Shown here piece by piece: positions 7,920-30,941 of a DNA stretch of 64,000 nt. The position numbers and the translations under genes were made by a program. Position 1 is the stretch's first letter. Each line of letters begins with the position of its first letter. This stretch comes from Nostoc cf. commune SO-36 (GTDB taxonomy: Bacteria > Cyanobacteriota > Cyanobacteriia > Cyanobacteriales > Nostocaceae): NCBI RefSeq assembly GCF_023734775.1, contig NZ_AP025734.1:62001-126000 (forward strand), written 5' to 3'. A model generated the notes under the pieces. It was not told the DNA's origin and did not search any database. It saw only the letters and a list, made by a program, of their open reading frames with translations.

Positions 7920-8468
7920 CTACTTACTGCCTTCATTTGTTTCCCGTTCGTTATTATTCTCCGTAACTTGAATGCTACTCTTTGGACGAGAAGCTTCATT
8001 TTCATCGCTTTCCTGGTTCGCATTCTCAGTGTAGAGAACCTTACCATTACCAGCGTCAACTTTCACCTCTTTTTGACCAATTTTTACAGCATAAACTAAG
8101 TTACCATCTTCATTTTCGAGTTTTACACTACTAGCTTTATCACCGACAGAAGTTTCAGCAGCTTGTTTAGCTTGTTCTGCTGTAATTTTAGCTAAAGCTT
8201 GTAGTTTTTTGTCCTCTTGCTGTTCTTCTTGATCATCATTAGTTTCACCGTCACCATCACTTGCTTGAGCTATTTTAGTGTGATGAACACCATTCTTCAT
8301 GATTTCATGAGCTTCTGTAGCGTCATTAGCTTCGCCATCTCCGTCACTAGCTTGAGCTACTTGTACACTGTTTTGTGAAGGAGAGGCACTTACGGTTTTG
8401 ACCACTGCACCAACACCTAAAATACTCATTAAAGCAGCTGCTAAAGCGATTTTTGTTGAAGTTTTCAT
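7920..8468 (-). CDS. Secreted PepSY-domain protein
   Basis: 182 residues from the ATG at 8468 (an in-frame ATG at 8504 would add 12 residues before the signal). The signal peptide MKTSTKIALAAALMSILGVG ends near VSASPSQ. An acidic linker holds the duplicated segment VAQASDGDGEANDAT / IAQASDGDGETNDDQ. The C-terminal half has a PepSY pattern: ITAEQAKQAAETSVG, then EDGNLVYAVKIGQKEVKVDAGNGKVL. PepSY proteins are usually periplasmic inhibitors or sensors and are common near two-component and metal-resistance genes. The partner is unknown. Confidence 0.8.
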   Translation of the reverse strand: MKTSTKIALAAALMSILGVGAVVKTVSASPSQNSVQVAQASDGDGEANDATEAHEIMKNGVHHTKIAQASDGDGETNDDQEEQQEDKKLQALAKITAEQAKQAAETSVGDKASSVKLENEDGNLVYAVKIGQKEVKVDAGNGKVLYTENANQESDENEASRPKSSIQVTENNNERETNEGSK

Positions 8469-8641
8469 GTGTGTCAATCCTGGAAATATGTGTTTTTTGA
8501 GCAATCCAAAATAATTAGCAGATACAAATCCTTAATTGTGGTATTTACACCTGCTTGAGATTTGCTATGGCTTCACTTTAAGAATAAAAAGTCAAGAAGT
8601 CGGAAAGATTGATTGAGATTATAAAAAATTAGTTTATTAAC

Positions 8642-8903
8642 TATAGGACTAATATTGGGAGCAATGCGATTTTGTGAGGTGCTTAAAATTCGGGTGCTAA
8701 ATCACCTATTTAGGGGTGCGATCGCAGCTAAATAACTGTTTTTATTGAGAATCTAGTTCTATAACTGAGAATTAAAGTCCGATCTAACAAAATCGCATTG
8801 CTCCCCTAATATTTGATTTCTGAAAAAGCTCCGTACATTTGAAGAGTCGCAAAATCAAAGGTAGTGTGTCGGATAAACCACTCAAACATCCACTTTAGAT
8901 GGG
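8642..8903 (-). mobile_element. IS630-type relic (end plus last codons of transposase)
   Basis: 8815-8903 matches the 3' end of the IS630-type copy at 29.75-30.94 kb; the reverse strand still reads KWMFEWFIRHTTFDF before the stop. The outer end TATAGGACT...ATTTGATTT matches that element's terminal repeat once the 149-bp insertion at 8657-8805 is removed. The matching sequence stops at about 8903, so the rest of the element is deleted. The Tn7-like transposon begins 50 bases later. Confidence 0.75.
8657..8805. repeat. MITE with the terminal repeats of the 46132-48055 IS
   Basis: 149 bases bounded by a perfect 18-bp inverted repeat, GGGAGCAATGCGATTTTG. The same 18 bases terminate the transposase-bearing element at 46132-48055. 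The flanks carry an exact 8-bp direct repeat CTAATATT (8649-8656 and 8806-8813). The interior is non-coding and differs from the large element, so this is a non-autonomous derivative. It sits inside the terminal repeat of the IS630 relic. Confidence 0.88.
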
Positions 8904-9067
8904 GTAGATATAGCGAAGCTGTCATGAAGGGCAAGATGGACTGAAAACTCTTACTGTCGGTGGAACCATAAGATTGCCGTTTTTACGTGCTTATGCTTCC
9001 AATTGATTTCGGCAAAATTATGCTTCCAAATAAACAAGCGTGCCATTCATTCCGGTATAGATCATGC

Positions 9068-10636
9068 TTATTCATAGCCGAGAGAGTTTTGAACATCACG
9101 TAGAGTCTTCTTAGCATACCAACTCAGCATGACTCCTGGCTTAGTGAGAAGCTGAGTTACCCTAGCTTGAGTCGGCTTGTGTCCTGTTTCATGAAGCAAT
9201 TGAGCAATATCAATAATCTCTTGGCATATGCGTTCCCTTTTCTCTTGTCCACTAGCTTTCTGGTACTCTTTATACCGCTTAGAGATTTCGCGAGAAAGTT
9301 CAGAGAAATATCGGTATAAATAGCTGTTATTTTTATAGCCAAGTCGTCGATTAATGGAAAGAAGTGAAGGAGGTGGAAATTCTTTGAGTGCTGCTTCCAG
9401 AATAGGTTGTATTTTTTGCTGTTTACTTACCTTTCTGTACTCAGCATGTCTGATTTTGATTGACTCACATAAAGAAGGAAAATGATATTGCAAAACTAAA
9501 GGACGATATCTCAAACGCAGTGCCACATATTCCAAAGAAGGTGCAGGATATTCCTTGAGTACCTCTGTTAGAACTACATTTAAAACTTGTTTTCTCTCCA
9601 AATCTAAGTGCTTATAAGATTTTCTTGGCTGCTTAACTACATTCAGTTTTGGTGAGAGAGAACTGTTTTTTGAGTCAGTTAATAATAAGTCTGTTGTTAA
9701 TAAATCTAACAGAGATATTTCTAGATAGTGAGTTAAAACTAAAAGATTATCAATCTGAGGTATTACTTTTCCTTTACACCACAAACCAATTGTTGCTTTA
9801 TTCATCCCAGATTGCCGAGAAAATGCAGGGATACTAGATTTAAAAACTTGCAAAATGTAGCTAGAAATTGTATTACTAACTTTCTGAAGATTAGGAGGAG
9901 AATTGAGAGTAGGTGTTACTGCAACTAGCTCTCCCAAATTGTTAACTATATTCAATTGCCGATTTCGTTCTGCTTCTGACTTTATCAGGCTTGTAAAAAC
10001 AGTTTTATGTCGATTATTTCCCAGCCACTTACCACATTTATTACAGTGTCCGGTTCGGGAGTCCCCAGAAATTGTCAGTTGTTGTTGATGACAGTGAGGA
10101 CACTGCTCTTGCAACGGTTGATGATGGTAAGGACAGACTTGGGCAGTATTGATAGACCAGAGAAGTGGTTCATAAACACTTGTGTGATTGTCATGCCATT
10201 CTTGGTAGCATTTGGGACACCAAGCCCGGTGACGACGGAGCAAGCCTCTTTTAGAAATGACCTGCGCCCAAGGTAACAGGGTAAGGTAGTGCAAGTCCAA
10301 ACGCCTAGTTAGCGCAGACATTGCACCCACAAGATTAGTTGCCATGAACCCTGTTCCATTAAACGCTGTTCTATCTCTGCCAGTTCCAAATACTTTGCTA
10401 ATACTTTCGTCTTGCAATTTTGCTTCTTTGCCCATTAGTGGGGCAATTTCGGTTATAGTCAACCGTCTAACAGTGACGCAATGTTCATGAGCAAGTCTTT
10501 GCACATAGCCTGTTAAGCTCTCTACATAAGGAGTTCCTATACCAATTGGCTCTAGATGATATAAGCGACTTCTTTGTGGGATAGCAGTTTTCTCAATATC
10601 CCATGATGGGTAAAGTTTGAGGGTCTCTTTGAGCAT
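9068..10636 (-). CDS. tniQ: TniQ/TnsD-family target-selection protein
   Basis: 522 residues, the size of Tn7 TnsD (508) and far longer than the short TniQ of type V-K CRISPR transposons. The N-terminal TniQ domain contains ESLTGYVQRLAHEH. Zinc-finger motifs follow: WCPKC (near 141), CPYHHQPLQEQCPHC and HCNKCGKWLG. A short helix-turn-helix-like stretch (GMNKATIGLWCKGKVIP) and repeated C-terminal units PAPSLEYVALRLRYRP / PPPSLLSINRRLGYKN resemble DNA-binding repeats of TnsD proteins. It probably binds a specific target site and recruits TnsC. Its stop lies near the left transposon end, and its start is one base from the end of tnsC. Confidence 0.88.
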   Translation of the reverse strand: MLKETLKLYPSWDIEKTAIPQRSRLYHLEPIGIGTPYVESLTGYVQRLAHEHCVTVRRLTITEIAPLMGKEAKLQDESISKVFGTGRDRTAFNGTGFMATNLVGAMSALTRRLDLHYLTLLPWAQVISKRGLLRRHRAWCPKCYQEWHDNHTSVYEPLLWSINTAQVCPYHHQPLQEQCPHCHQQQLTISGDSRTGHCNKCGKWLGNNRHKTVFTSLIKSEAERNRQLNIVNNLGELVAVTPTLNSPPNLQKVSNTISSYILQVFKSSIPAFSRQSGMNKATIGLWCKGKVIPQIDNLLVLTHYLEISLLDLLTTDLLLTDSKNSSLSPKLNVVKQPRKSYKHLDLERKQVLNVVLTEVLKEYPAPSLEYVALRLRYRPLVLQYHFPSLCESIKIRHAEYRKVSKQQKIQPILEAALKEFPPPSLLSINRRLGYKNNSYLYRYFSELSREISKRYKEYQKASGQEKRERICQEIIDIAQLLHETGHKPTQARVTQLLTKPGVMLSWYAKKTLRDVQNSLGYE

Positions 10637-10637
10637 A

Positions 10638-11807
10638 TTACTGATTGCCTACTTGATGCCGCTTGGGTTTGGGTTGTCCAGGTTTTCTTCTTAAGCGTGC
10701 TTTTTGAGTACCTAATTGTGGAGTTTTCAATGTCTGTGACTCCGAATCATCTGCAACGGCTCCTAAAGATGGCAAACCGAGTTCTGCACGCAGTTGAGAA
10801 ACTTCTGCTTCAATTTGTGCATGATTGTTTTCACCTTCCTTAATTTTCTTGAGAATGTTCCGGCATTGGGCAACAGATAAGGCACGCCGTTCTAAATGTT
10901 GAATTTTAACGGTGTTCGCACCTTCGGTCATGGCATCGAAGAGCGCATTCTGAAACCAATTTTTGAGAATCCCTACGCAGCCGAGACTTCGCTCATAACA
11001 GTAATCCCAATGAGAAACTAAATCCGGCTCCTCAACAAGGGGCATATTCAGTTGAAAACCCCACACCACGCTTTGAAATATCTCTCTGTCCTGAGTGCAG
11101 TCAGCACGGTAGCGGGGAAAGTGTACGTAGGCACTACGTCGGCTCAATTGATCCCCTACATCGTGTAAGGTGAGCAGTTCATAGGTGCCAACTAACCCAT
11201 GCACAACACTTGTTCTATTGGCAAGGGACTTAATAGCTTCTGGTAAATCTGTGAGCTTGCGCCCGGAAGCTATCATCAGCATATGATGAGCTTCATCAAT
11301 AAAAAATATTTTGGGTTTACGATGTTTGAGAGCTTGTTCTAATGCCCATCCCAAGTCTGTTTCAATAACTTTTGATTCAATAACAATTTGCCCATTGCTA
11401 TTACGATATATACCTCGCGTCCCATAGTCTATTTTCTGGTCAATCAATGGTTCATGAAGGGCAAATAAGCAGCGTTTGATATGATCTTTTGAATTGAAAA
11501 GTCCAGATTTTTGAACTACTGCCTCAACTGATGCAACTGGCAACCAACCTCTGTCAGCTTCTAATTCTTGTCGGTTCGTCTCAATCAGCCACTTTTCAAT
11601 CAGCAGACGCAGGGTTGTTTTCCCAACTCCAGTTGGCCCGTAAATAAAAATAACTCGTGATTCACCAGAATTACTAACCAAAAGCTTGAGTAAATTGAAG
11701 GTTTCTTCTAACCGAGGGTGTGCCATTGTATAGTTATCGAAGAAAGCCAACCGCACTAGCGGTGATTGCAACAGTAGAGATTGGGGGAATCTTGGGGATT
11801 TGGACAT
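10638..11807 (-). CDS. tnsC: TnsC-like AAA+ ATPase of Tn7-like transposon
   Basis: 389 residues. Walker A GPTGVGKTT is at residues 57-65 and Walker B KIFFIDEAHHM near 168; a sensor-like segment, VHGLVGTYELL, follows. The C-terminus is basic (RRKPGQPKPKRHQ) and may contact DNA or partners. TnsC polymerises on DNA with ATP and links target selection by TniQ/TnsD to the transposase. It lies between tnsAB (2-base gap) and tniQ (1-base gap), so translation is likely coupled. Confidence 0.9.
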   Translation of the reverse strand: MSKSPRFPQSLLLQSPLVRLAFFDNYTMAHPRLEETFNLLKLLVSNSGESRVIFIYGPTGVGKTTLRLLIEKWLIETNRQELEADRGWLPVASVEAVVQKSGLFNSKDHIKRCLFALHEPLIDQKIDYGTRGIYRNSNGQIVIESKVIETDLGWALEQALKHRKPKIFFIDEAHHMLMIASGRKLTDLPEAIKSLANRTSVVHGLVGTYELLTLHDVGDQLSRRSAYVHFPRYRADCTQDREIFQSVVWGFQLNMPLVEEPDLVSHWDYCYERSLGCVGILKNWFQNALFDAMTEGANTVKIQHLERRALSVAQCRNILKKIKEGENNHAQIEAEVSQLRAELGLPSLGAVADDSESQTLKTPQLGTQKARLRRKPGQPKPKRHQVGNQ

Positions 11808-11809
11808 GA

Positions 11810-14524
11810 TTAATAAGAATCGAAAGATTGGAGCAGATGGGGTTTAACCGCTATATTCTCGGATGTAGGAGACGATTCTGAGTTATTATTGTTAATCTCT
11901 TGTGCGATATTCAATTGCTCCAAAAAGCTTTCTTTTTGTCTGACTCCATCAATAACTTGAAATACTTCCTTGCCTTGAGCATCTCGCAGACGTTGGGCGA
12001 GTAAAACTTCCTCTGCTTCAGCAGTTGATAGAAATTCCGCTAACTTTTTAGCTCTCACTGTTAATTGTTTGTCATGGTTAGAGTTACGCTTTTGTAACTC
12101 AGCAGTCGCCAGCCAAATTTCTTTTTCTGAGCGTCCTTTGAAAATTGCATAATATTCACTAATACATTTCACCCATTGACCACGGATATAGGCATAGGCA
12201 ATTCCAACATCAAACGGGTCATATCTGGCTTCTACATGAGTTTTCTGGATTAAAGGGTCACGAAAGGCAGAATTCCAGTAGTGAATGCCCCGTATTTGTA
12301 TCCCTTTAGCTGGATGCACTTTTACCTTCCCAGATTGTATTGTTGGTAAAGTTAAAATTCTCCAGGTTTCGTCGTTAGGTATTAGTCGGTGAGCGCGACT
12401 TCCGTACTGGGATATTCCTGAAGTCAAAGCCTGTTTTGGCGAAATTCCTAATGCCGGATGTTCTGTTGTGTCGTACTCAGAGTAAGCCCATTCGCAGAGA
12501 TATAAATACAACAAGCCAAGTGTCCAAACTGCCAAGTTTTTAGGATTGACAGATTTGGTCATCAACCTGATTTTTTTAGTAATCTGTGTATTGCCGGCCA
12601 AGTTGTAGAGCAACTGGGTGTTTGCAGTTCCAAATAGGCGTTCGCAAACTCCACTAAATCGAGAAGCGGCAGGGGGACGGTGTTTGAGCGTACATTCAAA
12701 CAAAGCCAGCAAACTCTCGAAATAGTTGCTATGAAACTCTTTGCCGTTGTCTGTCACAATTATTTGGGGTAGGCGAGAGTGGCGCATCACGCAAATCCGC
12801 AGCACCATCATGCAACTGCGGTAGCTGGGAGGGTCAAAAGTCAAATAAACCGCTAGTATTGAACGACTGTAAGCATCCACCAAAAATGTTGCCCAAGGTC
12901 TGCCAAGAACTTGACCTGTAAGTGAACACCGTAGCTCTATGTCCATTTTGGTGTGGTCAATATGACCAATCTCAAAAGGGCGATCTCCGTGACGCGGTGT
13001 CGTTAGCTCTAATTCCCAGTAAAAAGGTTTTTGTGGGTAGGCAGCCCGATGTCCTTCACGAGCTTTTGTCTGTTCCCAACCACTACGCCGTTTTATTTCG
13101 TTAATAAATGTTTTGTAGCTGGGAATTTGGTCTGGAGAAATTCCGGCACTTACGCAGGCATTGTTAAAAGCTCCATAGACTTCATACTTGCGCTTCTGTT
13201 TGTGCGTTTCGTAGGCTTGTGTTATGAATTTGTCTATCAGTTCTAAGGTCTGTTGGGGTAGCTTTCGGTTGCGGTTGCCTTTTTTATTAGAGCAACTTAA
13301 AAGCCCAATATACCCATAGCCACATTTTTGTTGTGCTTGCCGATATTTGCTTAACCAATCTCTTAAGGTACGTTCTGATATTGTGGAATTCTCTAGTGGT
13401 TGCCCCAGCAACATTGGTTCAATACTTCTGTAACGGTGATTGGCCTCTTCTAAATCTTTTGAACTGGCTTGGAGCAGAATAGACTTTATTTGGTCATCGT
13501 TACAGTTGGACTGTTGGAGTTGAGAAGCTGTGATTTTTCCTTGACGAATTTTATTTTCAAACTCAGAAATGGGCAAATCAATAAAGTCTCCTTCTCTGGG
13601 ACGCAAAGTAATCTCAGTGTGACCAATTTGAACTAAGTTGTAGCTTTCACCATCCCAATTAATTGGCGTGTTGGGAATCAAATTTATAACTGGGGAACTG
13701 ATAGAATCAGCGATGGTCTGCGACGAAACCATCAAGTTGTAAGTTGTTCCCGAAAGTTGGTCACAAAAAACTCTGCACCGTTCTGGCTCAACCAAAAGGG
13801 TTGCCTTTAAATCCACATAAATTTTTTCAGTGGCAACCAGTTGGTAAATTTCATCTACACTAACTTTATTAGCTTGATAGAGCAATTCCCTCAGAGTTAT
13901 TCCAGGTTGTTCCTGAATTATTGCTCTTATAAGTTGTGTTTGATTCGGATCTATACTATCAACACGATTTCGGTAATAGTCTTCTAGGAAGGTAATGTTA
14001 CGATATAAAACCCAATTAATTTGGTCATCTGACTGGATGTGAAAATCAAATCCAAACTGTGCTGCGTGTTTAGATGCTGGTGGCGAATACCACTTTAAAT
14101 CTTCTCCCTTACTATAGCGATGGGGGTGTTTAACAATCAGCGATTTGAGTTCACTTAGAGTTTTACACTCTACCCAACCAGCACTGTTTGTTCTGATGAC
14201 AAAAAAGTCTGGGGTGTAAAAGAATCCAATATTTCGCCCACAGGCTCCTTGATAATTAATCTTAAATGCAGGGGGTTGGTCGTAAAATTCTAAGACATCT
14301 TCGTTATGCTCCAGTGAGTAAACGAAGGGAAGCTCAACTTTATGGGACTCAAATTGAATGCTTTGCCCCATCTTTTTACTGGGGTAAAAACCTGACACAT
14401 TTTTTCTCCCTCCTCCTACACGCCGTGCAGGTTCTTTTGATCGGATGTCTGCGAGAGTTTTGCGAGCCATCGGTGATAGGTTTTGACGACTACACCAGTT
14501 ATCAAACTCGTCAGGTGTGAGCAT
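11810..14524 (-). CDS. tnsAB: TnsA-TnsB fusion transposase
   Basis: 904 residues from the ATG at 14524, which has a strong Shine-Dalgarno (GGGGGAG) 7 bases upstream; an ATG at 14557 is less likely. The N-terminal about 210 residues are TnsA-like endonuclease: E64, then TPDFF with D106 and VECK with E119 and K121, the E-D-ExK pattern of Tn7 TnsA. The rest is a TnsB/Mu-type DDE transposase: HIDHT (D523), VTDNGKEF (D592) and GVCERLFGT (E628). The fusion would cut both strand ends, giving cut-and-paste transposition. TnsAB fusions are known in some Tn7-like lineages, including type I-B2 CRISPR transposons. Confidence 0.9.
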   Translation of the reverse strand: MLTPDEFDNWCSRQNLSPMARKTLADIRSKEPARRVGGGRKNVSGFYPSKKMGQSIQFESHKVELPFVYSLEHNEDVLEFYDQPPAFKINYQGACGRNIGFFYTPDFFVIRTNSAGWVECKTLSELKSLIVKHPHRYSKGEDLKWYSPPASKHAAQFGFDFHIQSDDQINWVLYRNITFLEDYYRNRVDSIDPNQTQLIRAIIQEQPGITLRELLYQANKVSVDEIYQLVATEKIYVDLKATLLVEPERCRVFCDQLSGTTYNLMVSSQTIADSISSPVINLIPNTPINWDGESYNLVQIGHTEITLRPREGDFIDLPISEFENKIRQGKITASQLQQSNCNDDQIKSILLQASSKDLEEANHRYRSIEPMLLGQPLENSTISERTLRDWLSKYRQAQQKCGYGYIGLLSCSNKKGNRNRKLPQQTLELIDKFITQAYETHKQKRKYEVYGAFNNACVSAGISPDQIPSYKTFINEIKRRSGWEQTKAREGHRAAYPQKPFYWELELTTPRHGDRPFEIGHIDHTKMDIELRCSLTGQVLGRPWATFLVDAYSRSILAVYLTFDPPSYRSCMMVLRICVMRHSRLPQIIVTDNGKEFHSNYFESLLALFECTLKHRPPAASRFSGVCERLFGTANTQLLYNLAGNTQITKKIRLMTKSVNPKNLAVWTLGLLYLYLCEWAYSEYDTTEHPALGISPKQALTSGISQYGSRAHRLIPNDETWRILTLPTIQSGKVKVHPAKGIQIRGIHYWNSAFRDPLIQKTHVEARYDPFDVGIAYAYIRGQWVKCISEYYAIFKGRSEKEIWLATAELQKRNSNHDKQLTVRAKKLAEFLSTAEAEEVLLAQRLRDAQGKEVFQVIDGVRQKESFLEQLNIAQEINNNNSESSPTSENIAVKPHLLQSFDSY

Positions 14525-14557
14525 TTTTTCTCCCCCTGAAATTTGAGTTGAAGACAC

Positions 14558-14849
14558 AACTCACAACATATGTCTTGTTTTTATAGCAGTGGTAGGAGTG
14601 CTGTCACTCGATTCATTGCTCTCGGCACTGGTCTGAGTGCTTCAGTTCATTGTATTTGTTACTACCGATTTGAAATCTTAAGAAAGTATATTTTTGGCAA
14701 GCTTATGGTGATAATTTTGCTTGACGGCAATGTTATGGTTCCAATTGCTGAAAAATGACTCAAAGTGTCTAACGGACACATCAGCATCTCAGCCACTATG
14801 GCGGCAATATTATGGTTCCAGTCGCGGCAATCTTATCCTTCCACCGACA
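14558..14849. other. Right transposon end with TnsB-type binding repeats
   Basis: Non-coding transposon end. Copies of GGCAANNTTATGGTTCCA start at 14696 (degenerate), 14726, 14803 and 14826; the last runs into the terminal ACCGACA. They share one orientation, as in Tn7 ends. No gene is supported here; the short open frames that cross it read transposon-end DNA. Confidence 0.75.
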
Positions 14850-15277
14850 AAGAGGCGGCAGATCAAGCCAAGAATTTAGTTGCCAATACCGAGGATAAAC
14901 AGGGCGGGATCAATGCTGAAGCTGCAACAACACCTAAGCCCACAACTGCTGGTGCAGCTATTTTAAACCATGAAATGCAGGTTACGCTTGCCCCTGATGA
15001 AGGTAAGGAAATCAAGCTTGACATGAGTAAAGGCAATAAAGTGCAATACACTTGGTCTACAGATGGTGGCAAAGCCAATTTTGATGTGCATGCCGATTCT
15101 CAAACATTAGGAATCAATTACCATCAGTACAGCAAGGGATCTTCGCAAAGCGAACAAGGGGAACTTGAAGCAGCCTTTGATGGTTCACATGGTTGGTTTT
15201 GGAGAAATCGGACATCTAACACAATTACCATTACCCTTAAAACTATAGGTGAATATACTGATATTAAACAGAAATAA
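14850..15277 (+). pseudogene. Truncated czc-associated transmembrane anchor protein
   Basis: An open frame from the transposon end to 15277 gives about 142 residues (ADQAKNLVANTEDKQGG ... HGWFWRNRTSNTITITLKT). The C-terminal beta-rich domain with a WFWRN motif resembles the transmembrane anchor proteins encoded just before CzcA pumps in cyanobacteria. Their N-terminal membrane helix is missing: the frame runs directly into the Tn7-like end, so the transposon, or a deletion next to it, removed the start. It is followed by a czcA relic, as expected for an old czc operon. Confidence 0.7.
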
Positions 15278-15860
15278 GGAGGAAATGCGCGATTCTTAAT
15301 TGGCGGCGGTCAAGAACTGTTGGTGCGCGGCATTGAGCAGGTGAAATCAATTGAAGACTTGCAGCAATCCGTGGTCAAAGTGCAAGGTGGTAAACTATGG
15401 ATAGATCGCCCTTACTGGCGGGGTCATTTCCATCGCCTCCCTGATTGGTTTCATCACCTTGTTTGGGGTTGCCACTCGCAATGGCTTGTTGCTGGTTGAT
15501 AACTACAACAACAAATTTGCCCAGGGAATGCACCTTAAAGATGTGATTGTGAAGGGTTCCCTGGAACGGATTAACGCCATCCTGATGACTGCCCTTAGCT
15601 CGGCACTGGGGATGTTGCCGCTAGCGATCGCTGGCGGAGCCGGAAATGAAATTCTGCAACCGTTGGCGATCGTGGTCTTTCTTGGGTGGTTTGTTTACCT
15701 CCACGGCATTAACCTTGTTGGTCATTCCTGCGATCTATGCCAAATTTGGCAAGTGGTTGATACCCAAGCAAACCCACCAACTTTACAGACTAGAACGGAA
15801 GCAGTACAACGTTCCTAGTCAGCGGCGGCAGATAATCTTTGCATTATCACCAGGATCTCC
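15278..15860 (+). pseudogene. czcA/cusA relic with large internal deletion and frameshift
   Basis: 15290-15400 reads FLIGGGQELLVRGIEQVKSIEDLQQS, matching about residues 215-245 of RND metal pumps. From about 15420 the frame changes and matches the far C-terminal region (FGVATRNGLLLVDNYNN ... ALSSALGMLPLAIAGG). Roughly 690 codons between are lost. At about 15678 four extra bases (cttt) relative to the copy at 18.4 kb shift the frame again, and FTSTALTLLVIPAIYAKFG continues in another frame. It cannot encode a pump. Confidence 0.82.
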
Positions 15861-15910
15861 AAACTGTCCGCTCCAACAGGGTTGTTGTGCTGCTGTCAAC
15901 TAACGTTCGA

Positions 15911-29749: not shown

Positions 29750-30941
29750 TAGGAATCCTATTTGATTTTTGAATAGGCTCCGTACATCTGTAAAGTGTCG
29801 AAATCAAAGGTAGTGTGTCTAATAAACCACTCAAACATCCACTTTAAATGAGAAAATGTTGGAACCAAAGCACAAAAACGTCTAACCCATGTTTTGGCTT
29901 GTAACCAGATATCTTCAATTGGATTTTGTATTGGGCAATTGGGGGCAAAGCGAACACAATGTATTTTCCATTGCTCGGTTGGCAAACTTTGATTAACAGA
30001 GTCCAGAAAACCTCGAATTTCTTTGGAACGGTGGTAGCTAGCACCATCCCAAAAAATTAGTAATTGCTGGTCGGGAGAGTCAGCTAGCAAGTATTGTAGG
30101 TAGTCAATGGTATTTTTTGAGTTTCCCGCATCATAAGCTTTGAGAACTAATTTTCCATCAAGATAGTCAACTGCCCCATAGTATGTCTGCTTATCTCGTT
30201 CATTAATGACTCTCACCGCTATTTCTTGGTCACTTTTTCCCCATACGTAGCCGCTTAAATCTCCCCACATTAAATGACATTCATCAATTAGCAGTACTCT
30301 TAATTTTCCTGTTTCGATTGACTCCCGGTGAGTTGCCAGCAATGTTTCAATCTCTTTTTTTTTACGGCAACAGCATTCTCGTCGGCTTTGGGGTTCAGCT
30401 TTGTCGTTTTTTTCCAACTGATAGATGCTGCATCGAACAAATCGTAGTAACTTTGTTTTGACTCATAAACCACATCATACTCAAAGGCCAATTTATACTC
30501 TAGTTCCCCAAGCTCCCAACAGTACGAGTGTTTGCAACCAACTCAACACCTCTTCTCGCTGTTCGGCATTTAGGTAGCTCTTTCTCCCTTTGTGGTTCAA
30601 GCGCAGTCCCGAAATTCCATATTCCTCGTAGGCAAGATCCAACCTGTTATGGAGCCTCTAGACACATCTAGAATTGTTTGAATTTCATCATACAAGTAGC
30701 CTTGATAAACCAGCTTGACTGCCAACGCTTTCCTGACCTCACGCACATCTGGACGCAGAGCGATAAAATCTTGTAGTTCCACGATGGCATGAAATTTTAT
30801 TTCCTCTGTTGACTGTTGGCGCGATACTTCCAGTGCAAGTGTGGTAGTTTGTAAATGCTGGCTTATCATTGTCCTTTATTAGACTTTCATTTCCCTACGT
30901 ATTATCTTGTAGTCTTGTTCAAAAATCAAATAGGAGTCCTA
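29750..30941 (-). mobile_element. IS630-type insertion (copy A) in mntH
   Basis: 1192 bases. The terminal repeats read TAGGAATCCTATTTGATTTT at the left and TAGGACTCCTATTTGATTTT at the right (complement), flanked by TA (29748-29749 and 30942-30943), the IS630 target duplication. Removing the element plus one TA restores the NRAMP frame exactly. A relic of the same type lies at 8642-8903, and a MITE with related ends at 37450-37583. Confidence 0.9.
29758..30869 (-). pseudogene. IS630-type transposase with several frameshifts
   Basis: The N-terminal helix-turn-helix part (ISQHLQTTTLALEVSRQQ, then DEIQTILDVSRGSITGW) is in one frame up to about 30640. Then AYEEYGISGLRLNHKGRKSY, ELEYKLAFEYDVVYESKQ and the DDE domain (LLIDECHLMWGDLSG, IFWDGASYH, CPIQNPIEDIW) lie in other frames. 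The break at about 30355-30363 is a run of nine T (A on the coding strand) and could be a programmed slip, but breaks near 30640 and 30520 look like real damage. Probably inactive. Confidence 0.78.

Follow-up and report, generated by a model that had tools for sequence, protein, structure and literature searches.

How does a Tn7-like transposon that carries only the genes for its own movement, and only one target-selecting protein, choose where to insert? The question is raised by an element found in a 64,000-nucleotide stretch of the Nostoc cf. commune SO-36 genome (contig NZ_AP025734.1, positions 62,001 to 126,000; hereafter the window). Known target selectors of the TnsD type aim at safe sites in the host genome, for example glmS or a tRNA gene, and for access to mobile DNA Tn7-like elements often depend on a second pathway. 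Comparison of the window element with its relatives suggests that its single TniQ/TnsD protein very probably recognises the terminal inverted repeats (TIRs) of other transposons, mainly those of the Tn3 family and less often those of a TniA/TniB type. This would represent a new target class for a Tn7-like element, and the comparison supports it well.

The element is intact and 5895 bp long, and it leaves no room for cargo. It has a TnsB-type DDE transposase, a TnsA endonuclease, a TnsC ATPase and a TniQ/TnsD protein, the features of membership among Tn7-like elements, and its ends are of the TGT...ACA type with several TnsB-like sites, as in Tn7-like transposons. Its parts are as follows.

8955..14849, no strand assigned: whole Tn7-like element, delimited by its matching ends and by identical boundaries in related copies (L008 and those of genome G221)
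8955..8979, plus strand: terminal repeat at the TniQ end, holding the terminal TnsB-like site 8961-8979 (minus strand)
9010..9028, plus strand: inner TnsB-like site at the TniQ end, unmirrored
9068..10636, minus strand: tniQ/tnsD, 522 aa, PF06527, relative of TnsD 8v32_J, structure model with mean pLDDT 83.2
10638..11807, minus strand: tnsC, 389-aa AAA+ ATPase with AAA_22 and TniB domains, matching 8fcu_Q at 371.5 bits
11810..14524, minus strand: tnsAB fusion, 904 aa from an ATG, matching 9bw1_M at 1121.6 bits
14695..14843, plus strand: four TnsB-like sites at the TnsA end, starting at 14695, 14725, 14802 and 14825
14825..14849, minus strand: terminal repeat at the TnsA end

The outer 25 bp starting at 8955 and at 14849 are identical at 23 positions, TGTCGGTGGAA included, and six 19-mer sites with the consensus CGGCAATnTTATGGTTCCA are present, two at the TniQ end and four at the TnsA end; the matching ends and internal TnsB-type repeats reported in the original prediction are thus confirmed. 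Inner TnsB-like sites at the TniQ end share the direction of the TnsA-end sites and are unmirrored (L009, L042 and window 8955-9028). The TnsAB protein, for which an upstream GTG at 14557 offers an alternative start (915 aa), comprises TnsA N-terminal and C-terminal domains, rve and Mu-transpos_C. Every catalytic residue that had been named lies at its expected position, namely E64, D106, E119 and K121 in the TnsA part and D523, D592 and E628 in the DDE part. Between the ends (8955-14849) the gene set is TnsAB, TnsC and a single TniQ, with no Cascade genes, second TniQ or resolvase, and the window contains no tRNA genes or Rfam matches. Gene content and domains therefore bear out the description of a Tn7-like element that is minimal and cargo-less, in which TnsA and TnsB are fused and a single TniQ, of the TnsD type, is present.

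In the flanks of copies with readable ends, two motifs are common on the TniQ side. The motif GGGGTAAANNTAGCGAAGCTGTCA is a Tn3-family TIR: it forms inverted pairs separated by 4.5-4.8 kb, and the genes between them include Tn3 TnpA (PF01526, E 5.5e-139 and 1.1e-142 in two TIR-bounded loci). The motif TGTAGCGAACTGCAAAC... marks the end of a different transposon and is present singly or in inverted pairs. At one locus (L135) it flanks genes for a resolvase and an AAA ATPase and one annotated as encoding a DDE transposase. We label this transposon TniA/TniB-type (Tn402/Tn5053-like), with weak Pfam support for its transposase gene. It appears to give a 6-bp target duplication (L110, L135; GGTATC in L110). 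The gene sets of the two kinds of host transposon are unrelated. A conserved 47-nt T-motif was considered as part of the Tn7-like element and rejected, because it belongs to the end of a separate transposon and is seen both by itself and in inverted pairs. Coding sequences were also rejected as targets: many TIRs read '...GVKVAKLSP', but rejoined sites contain only short open reading frames and the motif is paired at transposon ends.

A TniQ-end pattern was searched for in 217 genomes of the family, and 73 matches were picked by eye on their end sequence and then fetched; with the window these make 74, of which 70 (from 42 genomes) are distinct in the last 50 nt of flank. A Tn3-family-type TIR, defined by at least 18 of 26 matches and a tip 50-60 bp from the element, is present in 40 of the 70 TniQ-side flanks, and a TniA-type TIR (at least 17 of 26, 46-49 bp) in 8. 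Among 20,000 random positions in those loci, the same definitions apply to 0.245% and 0.005%, respectively. The Tn3-type tips lie 55 bp from the element in 26 flanks, 56 bp in 7, 54 bp in 3, and 50, 53, 57 and 58 bp in one each, which places 36 of 40 at 54-56 bp; the TniA-type tips lie at 47 bp in 7 flanks and at 48 bp in 1.

Among 25 elements with both flanks scored (the far flank of L289 is too short), a TIR lies on the TniQ side in 20 and on the TnsA side in 6. Perfect 5-bp duplications surround 13 of these 25, and because 11 of the 13 have a TniQ-side TIR and none has a TnsA-side TIR, clean insertions have a single orientation. When empty sites were rejoined in silico, 7 of 20 gave junction-spanning alignments to fetched loci, TIR-bearing or otherwise, including L289 with TnpA locus L386 (89.5% over 105 nt, ungapped), L330 with TnpA locus L391 (81% over 79 nt, ungapped) and L298 with TniA-type locus L109 (79.5% over 176 nt). 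The earlier suggestion that empty and filled sites would reveal the attachment site was fruitful for related copies, in which the site is the TIR of another transposon, but not for the window and L008, whose sites are unmatched.

A close copy (L008) aligns over 5895 of 5895 bp with 97.8% identity. Four more, 5894-5895 bp long, are in genome G221; their TnsAB is 96% identical to that of the window, and all lie at Tn3-type TIRs with tips at 55-58 bp. The search for further copies with the same ends, proposed in the original prediction, was thus productive, and because these copies have the same extent, they support the boundaries of the window element. The latter (contig C3, 228,652 bp) is the sole full copy in its own genome. 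The same genome also contains a distant TnsAB element (L049, G000:C1:4968001-4988000, contig C1) with 43% TnsAB identity and two TniQ proteins (520 and 428 aa). In L011/L167 and L048/L318, copies with an internal deletion have TnsAB running into TniQ, and TnsC is lost.

The window element itself lies beside a TIR, with these features.

8901..8938, plus strand: outer 38 bp of a Tn3-family-type TIR, with its tip at 8901, 54 bp from the element
8911..8917, plus strand: TAGCGAA core, starting 44 bp from the element, assigned from the sequence and from the register of the core in other copies

This TIR matches that of the Tn3-family locus L225 at 23 of 26 positions at distance 54, with an exact consensus match at 8901-8924. 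Repeats make up the left flank: a 150-bp piece (8657-8806) and a 96-bp piece (8806-8901), the latter ending where the TIR begins. Both have many copies across genomes of the genus, and the 96-bp one is present again at 29759-29850. On the TnsA side the flank is a truncated gene, and positions 14850-15903 comprise this gene and an efflux-gene fragment, which we take to be a decayed metal-efflux region with an RND-type fragment. Tn3 TnpA has one match in this genome, at another location. Flanks at 14850-15850 (TnsA side) and 8455-8954 (TniQ side) revealed no empty site in 53 genomes of the genus.

These data suggest a mechanism in which TniQ, located at a TIR, would bring TnsC and TnsAB to it. 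Insertion, presumably by cut-and-paste transposition, would occur on the inner side of the outer tip of a Tn3 TIR, about 55 bp from that tip and about 45 bp from the start of the TAGCGAA core, with the TniQ end toward the tip. Because the outer 38 bp of the TIR would be left whole, the host transposon would still be movable. Units with two flanking host TIRs could likewise be moved by the host transposase.

Several elements have such an arrangement. TIRs are on both sides of five (L280, L281, L292, L313 and L340), none of which has a Tn7-type duplication. The outer unit is perfectly duplicated in three, with GAGAA in L280 and AAATT in L292 (5 bp, Tn3-like) and TCTAGT in L281 (6 bp, the length found in the TniA-type L110); L313 has a single mismatch among the six positions, whereas L340, whose two TIRs are of different types, has no outer duplication. 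The L292 unit spans 6007 bp, matches each of the three Tn7-like genes and contains no host gene. These outer duplications point to carriage of the element by a host transposon, perhaps through mobilisation in trans by a Tn3 or TniA-type transposase. A likely origin is that two insertions occurred at both ends of one host transposon, its interior was lost by recombination, and the host transposase then moved the resulting unit.

Smaller relatives were also identified. Sixteen miniature elements, 316-422 bp long, have the same ends and no genes, and perfect duplications surround 10 of them.

L271, L273, L276, L280, L281, L293, L307-L310, L313, L329, L330, L334, L336 and L341: miniature elements, mostly at the same TIR sites

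Some form families, for example L273, L334 and L280 at 98.7-99.4% identity. Two tandems (L273/L274 and L289/L290) consist of two elements with one shared 5-bp duplication, as expected if a single site is used twice. On balance we favour the view that this lineage hunts transposon ends: TniQ would read the GTAGCGAA core and insert just behind the TIR, and the element and its miniature satellites would serve as cargo for Tn3-family and TniA-type transposases, including in units of 426 to 6007 bp without host genes.

Some observations weigh against recognition of TIRs by TniQ. The window copy has a TIR but no 5-bp target duplication (CTTAC versus AAGAG); this, together with the truncated gene on the TnsA side, indicates that the site has been rearranged. 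The near-identical L008/L324 is at no TIR and also has no duplication, and 13 of the 20 rejoined sites, including those of the window and L008, have no match across the junction. Moreover, 22 of the 70 flanks fit neither TIR type. Two of these (L274 and L290) stand second in a tandem in which the first element has a qualifying TIR, and some others are TIR-like by eye, but L277, L284, L285, L295, L300, L305, L311 and L324 are not. Finally, the motif was first seen in part of the flanks later counted, and three Tn3 reference TIRs (L224, L225 and L227) were found with it. Because of this overlap, an independent set was built from 20 TnpA loci, with TIRs detected purely as inverted repeats flanking the gene; 19 of these loci have a pair and L382 has none. 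With the 13 independent tips alone, 15 of the 70 flanks qualify, compared with 0.17% of random positions.

The unmatched flanks and the L008 copy are what would be expected if insertion into transposon-rich DNA were untargeted, as a review suggests for the cargo-less Tn5469, and the TIR association were a by-product. However, the fixed spacing, the low random expectation and the single orientation of insertions with duplications make this highly improbable. Another idea, that Tn3-family and TniA-type transposons inserted beside Tn7-like elements, draws on the abundance of both kinds (the Tn3 TnpA family is matched in 130 of 208 searched genomes), but is scarcely credible, because the outer tip is directed away from the element, which places the element inside the TIR, and because 13 elements have perfect Tn7-type duplications and some rejoined sites are continuous TIR-bearing sequence.

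It is also conceivable, if unlikely, that the element senses the host transposase or another TIR-bound protein instead of the TIR sequence. Such behaviour is reported in a review for Tn5053-family elements at the resolution sites of Tn3-family transposons. Also, a sister-clade element (L338) with a TniQ of only 333 aa lies at a Tn3-type TIR at 55 bp, and the 7.5 kb fetched contain no second gene of TniQ size, which both counts against the reading preferred here and suggests that the long TniQ C-terminus may not set the target. However, GTAGCGAA is common to TIRs of both types in the same register, 46-39 bp from the element, and because the two types have unrelated genes, this is easier to explain if TniQ reads the TIR directly. 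We therefore prefer direct reading as an inference. The C-terminal helical repeats of TniQ (residues about 346-519) had been considered unusual and potentially a new target-recognition mode; the former is not supported, as the C-terminus of the solved TnsD 8v32_J is homologous and has only one unit fewer, and L338 leaves the latter without support.

The closest solved relatives of the window proteins (9bw1, 8fcu and 8v32) are from type I-B CRISPR-associated transposons (CASTs), so the element is classed as a non-CRISPR relative of type I-B2 CASTs, in agreement with the original prediction. In contrast to the I-B2 CASTs PmcCAST and Tn7744, it has three genes, one TniQ in place of two and no Cascade. 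It also lies at a transposon TIR, whereas the I-B2 attachment site is a tRNA gene, according to a review. For a group with an 898-aa TnsAB, no CRISPR neighbours were seen among five proteins scanned at one locus (L046).

The TniQ of Tn5469 of Fremyella diplosiphon is short. According to a review, Tn5469 is similar to the window element in being cargo-less with one TniQ, but it is reported as apparently untargeted, unlike the window element's relatives at TIRs; two Tolypothrix PCC 7601 records examined for Tn5469 carry another TnsAB element, which has no annotated TniQ. The Tn5053/Tn402 family of res-site hunters also has one TniQ and lands in parts of Tn3-family transposons, but it targets the resolution site and not the TIR. 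Members of the Tn5053 family have no TnsA and have their own resolvase, whereas the window element has TnsA and no resolvase. IS4321 and IS5075 insert inside the TIR, whereas the outer 38 bp is kept whole beside elements of the window type. The likeness lies in the TIR target and the difference in an unrelated transposase; a paper title gives their targets as the TIRs of Tn21-family (Tn3-type) transposons and places them in the IS1111 family.

The literature consulted includes PMC10293859, PMC11406308, PMC8649781 and PMC11187229. Elements of this kind are already known, but no description of Tn7-like insertion at Tn3 TIRs, or of apparent carriage by Tn3-family transposons, was found in the literature searched, whose coverage excludes Hsieh and Peters (PMC9881144), the main paper on cyanobacterial Tn7-like elements, where an earlier description is possible.

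An element whose one TnsD-type protein is aimed at transposon ends would gain mobility from its target. The element is closely related to I-B2 CASTs, is itself non-CRISPR and has a short, readable target, so the protein-DNA code of its TnsD C-terminus may be compared with that of the I-B2 TnsD whose structure is solved. Many natural insertion sites for such a comparison are supplied by the one-sided TIR and the satellites.
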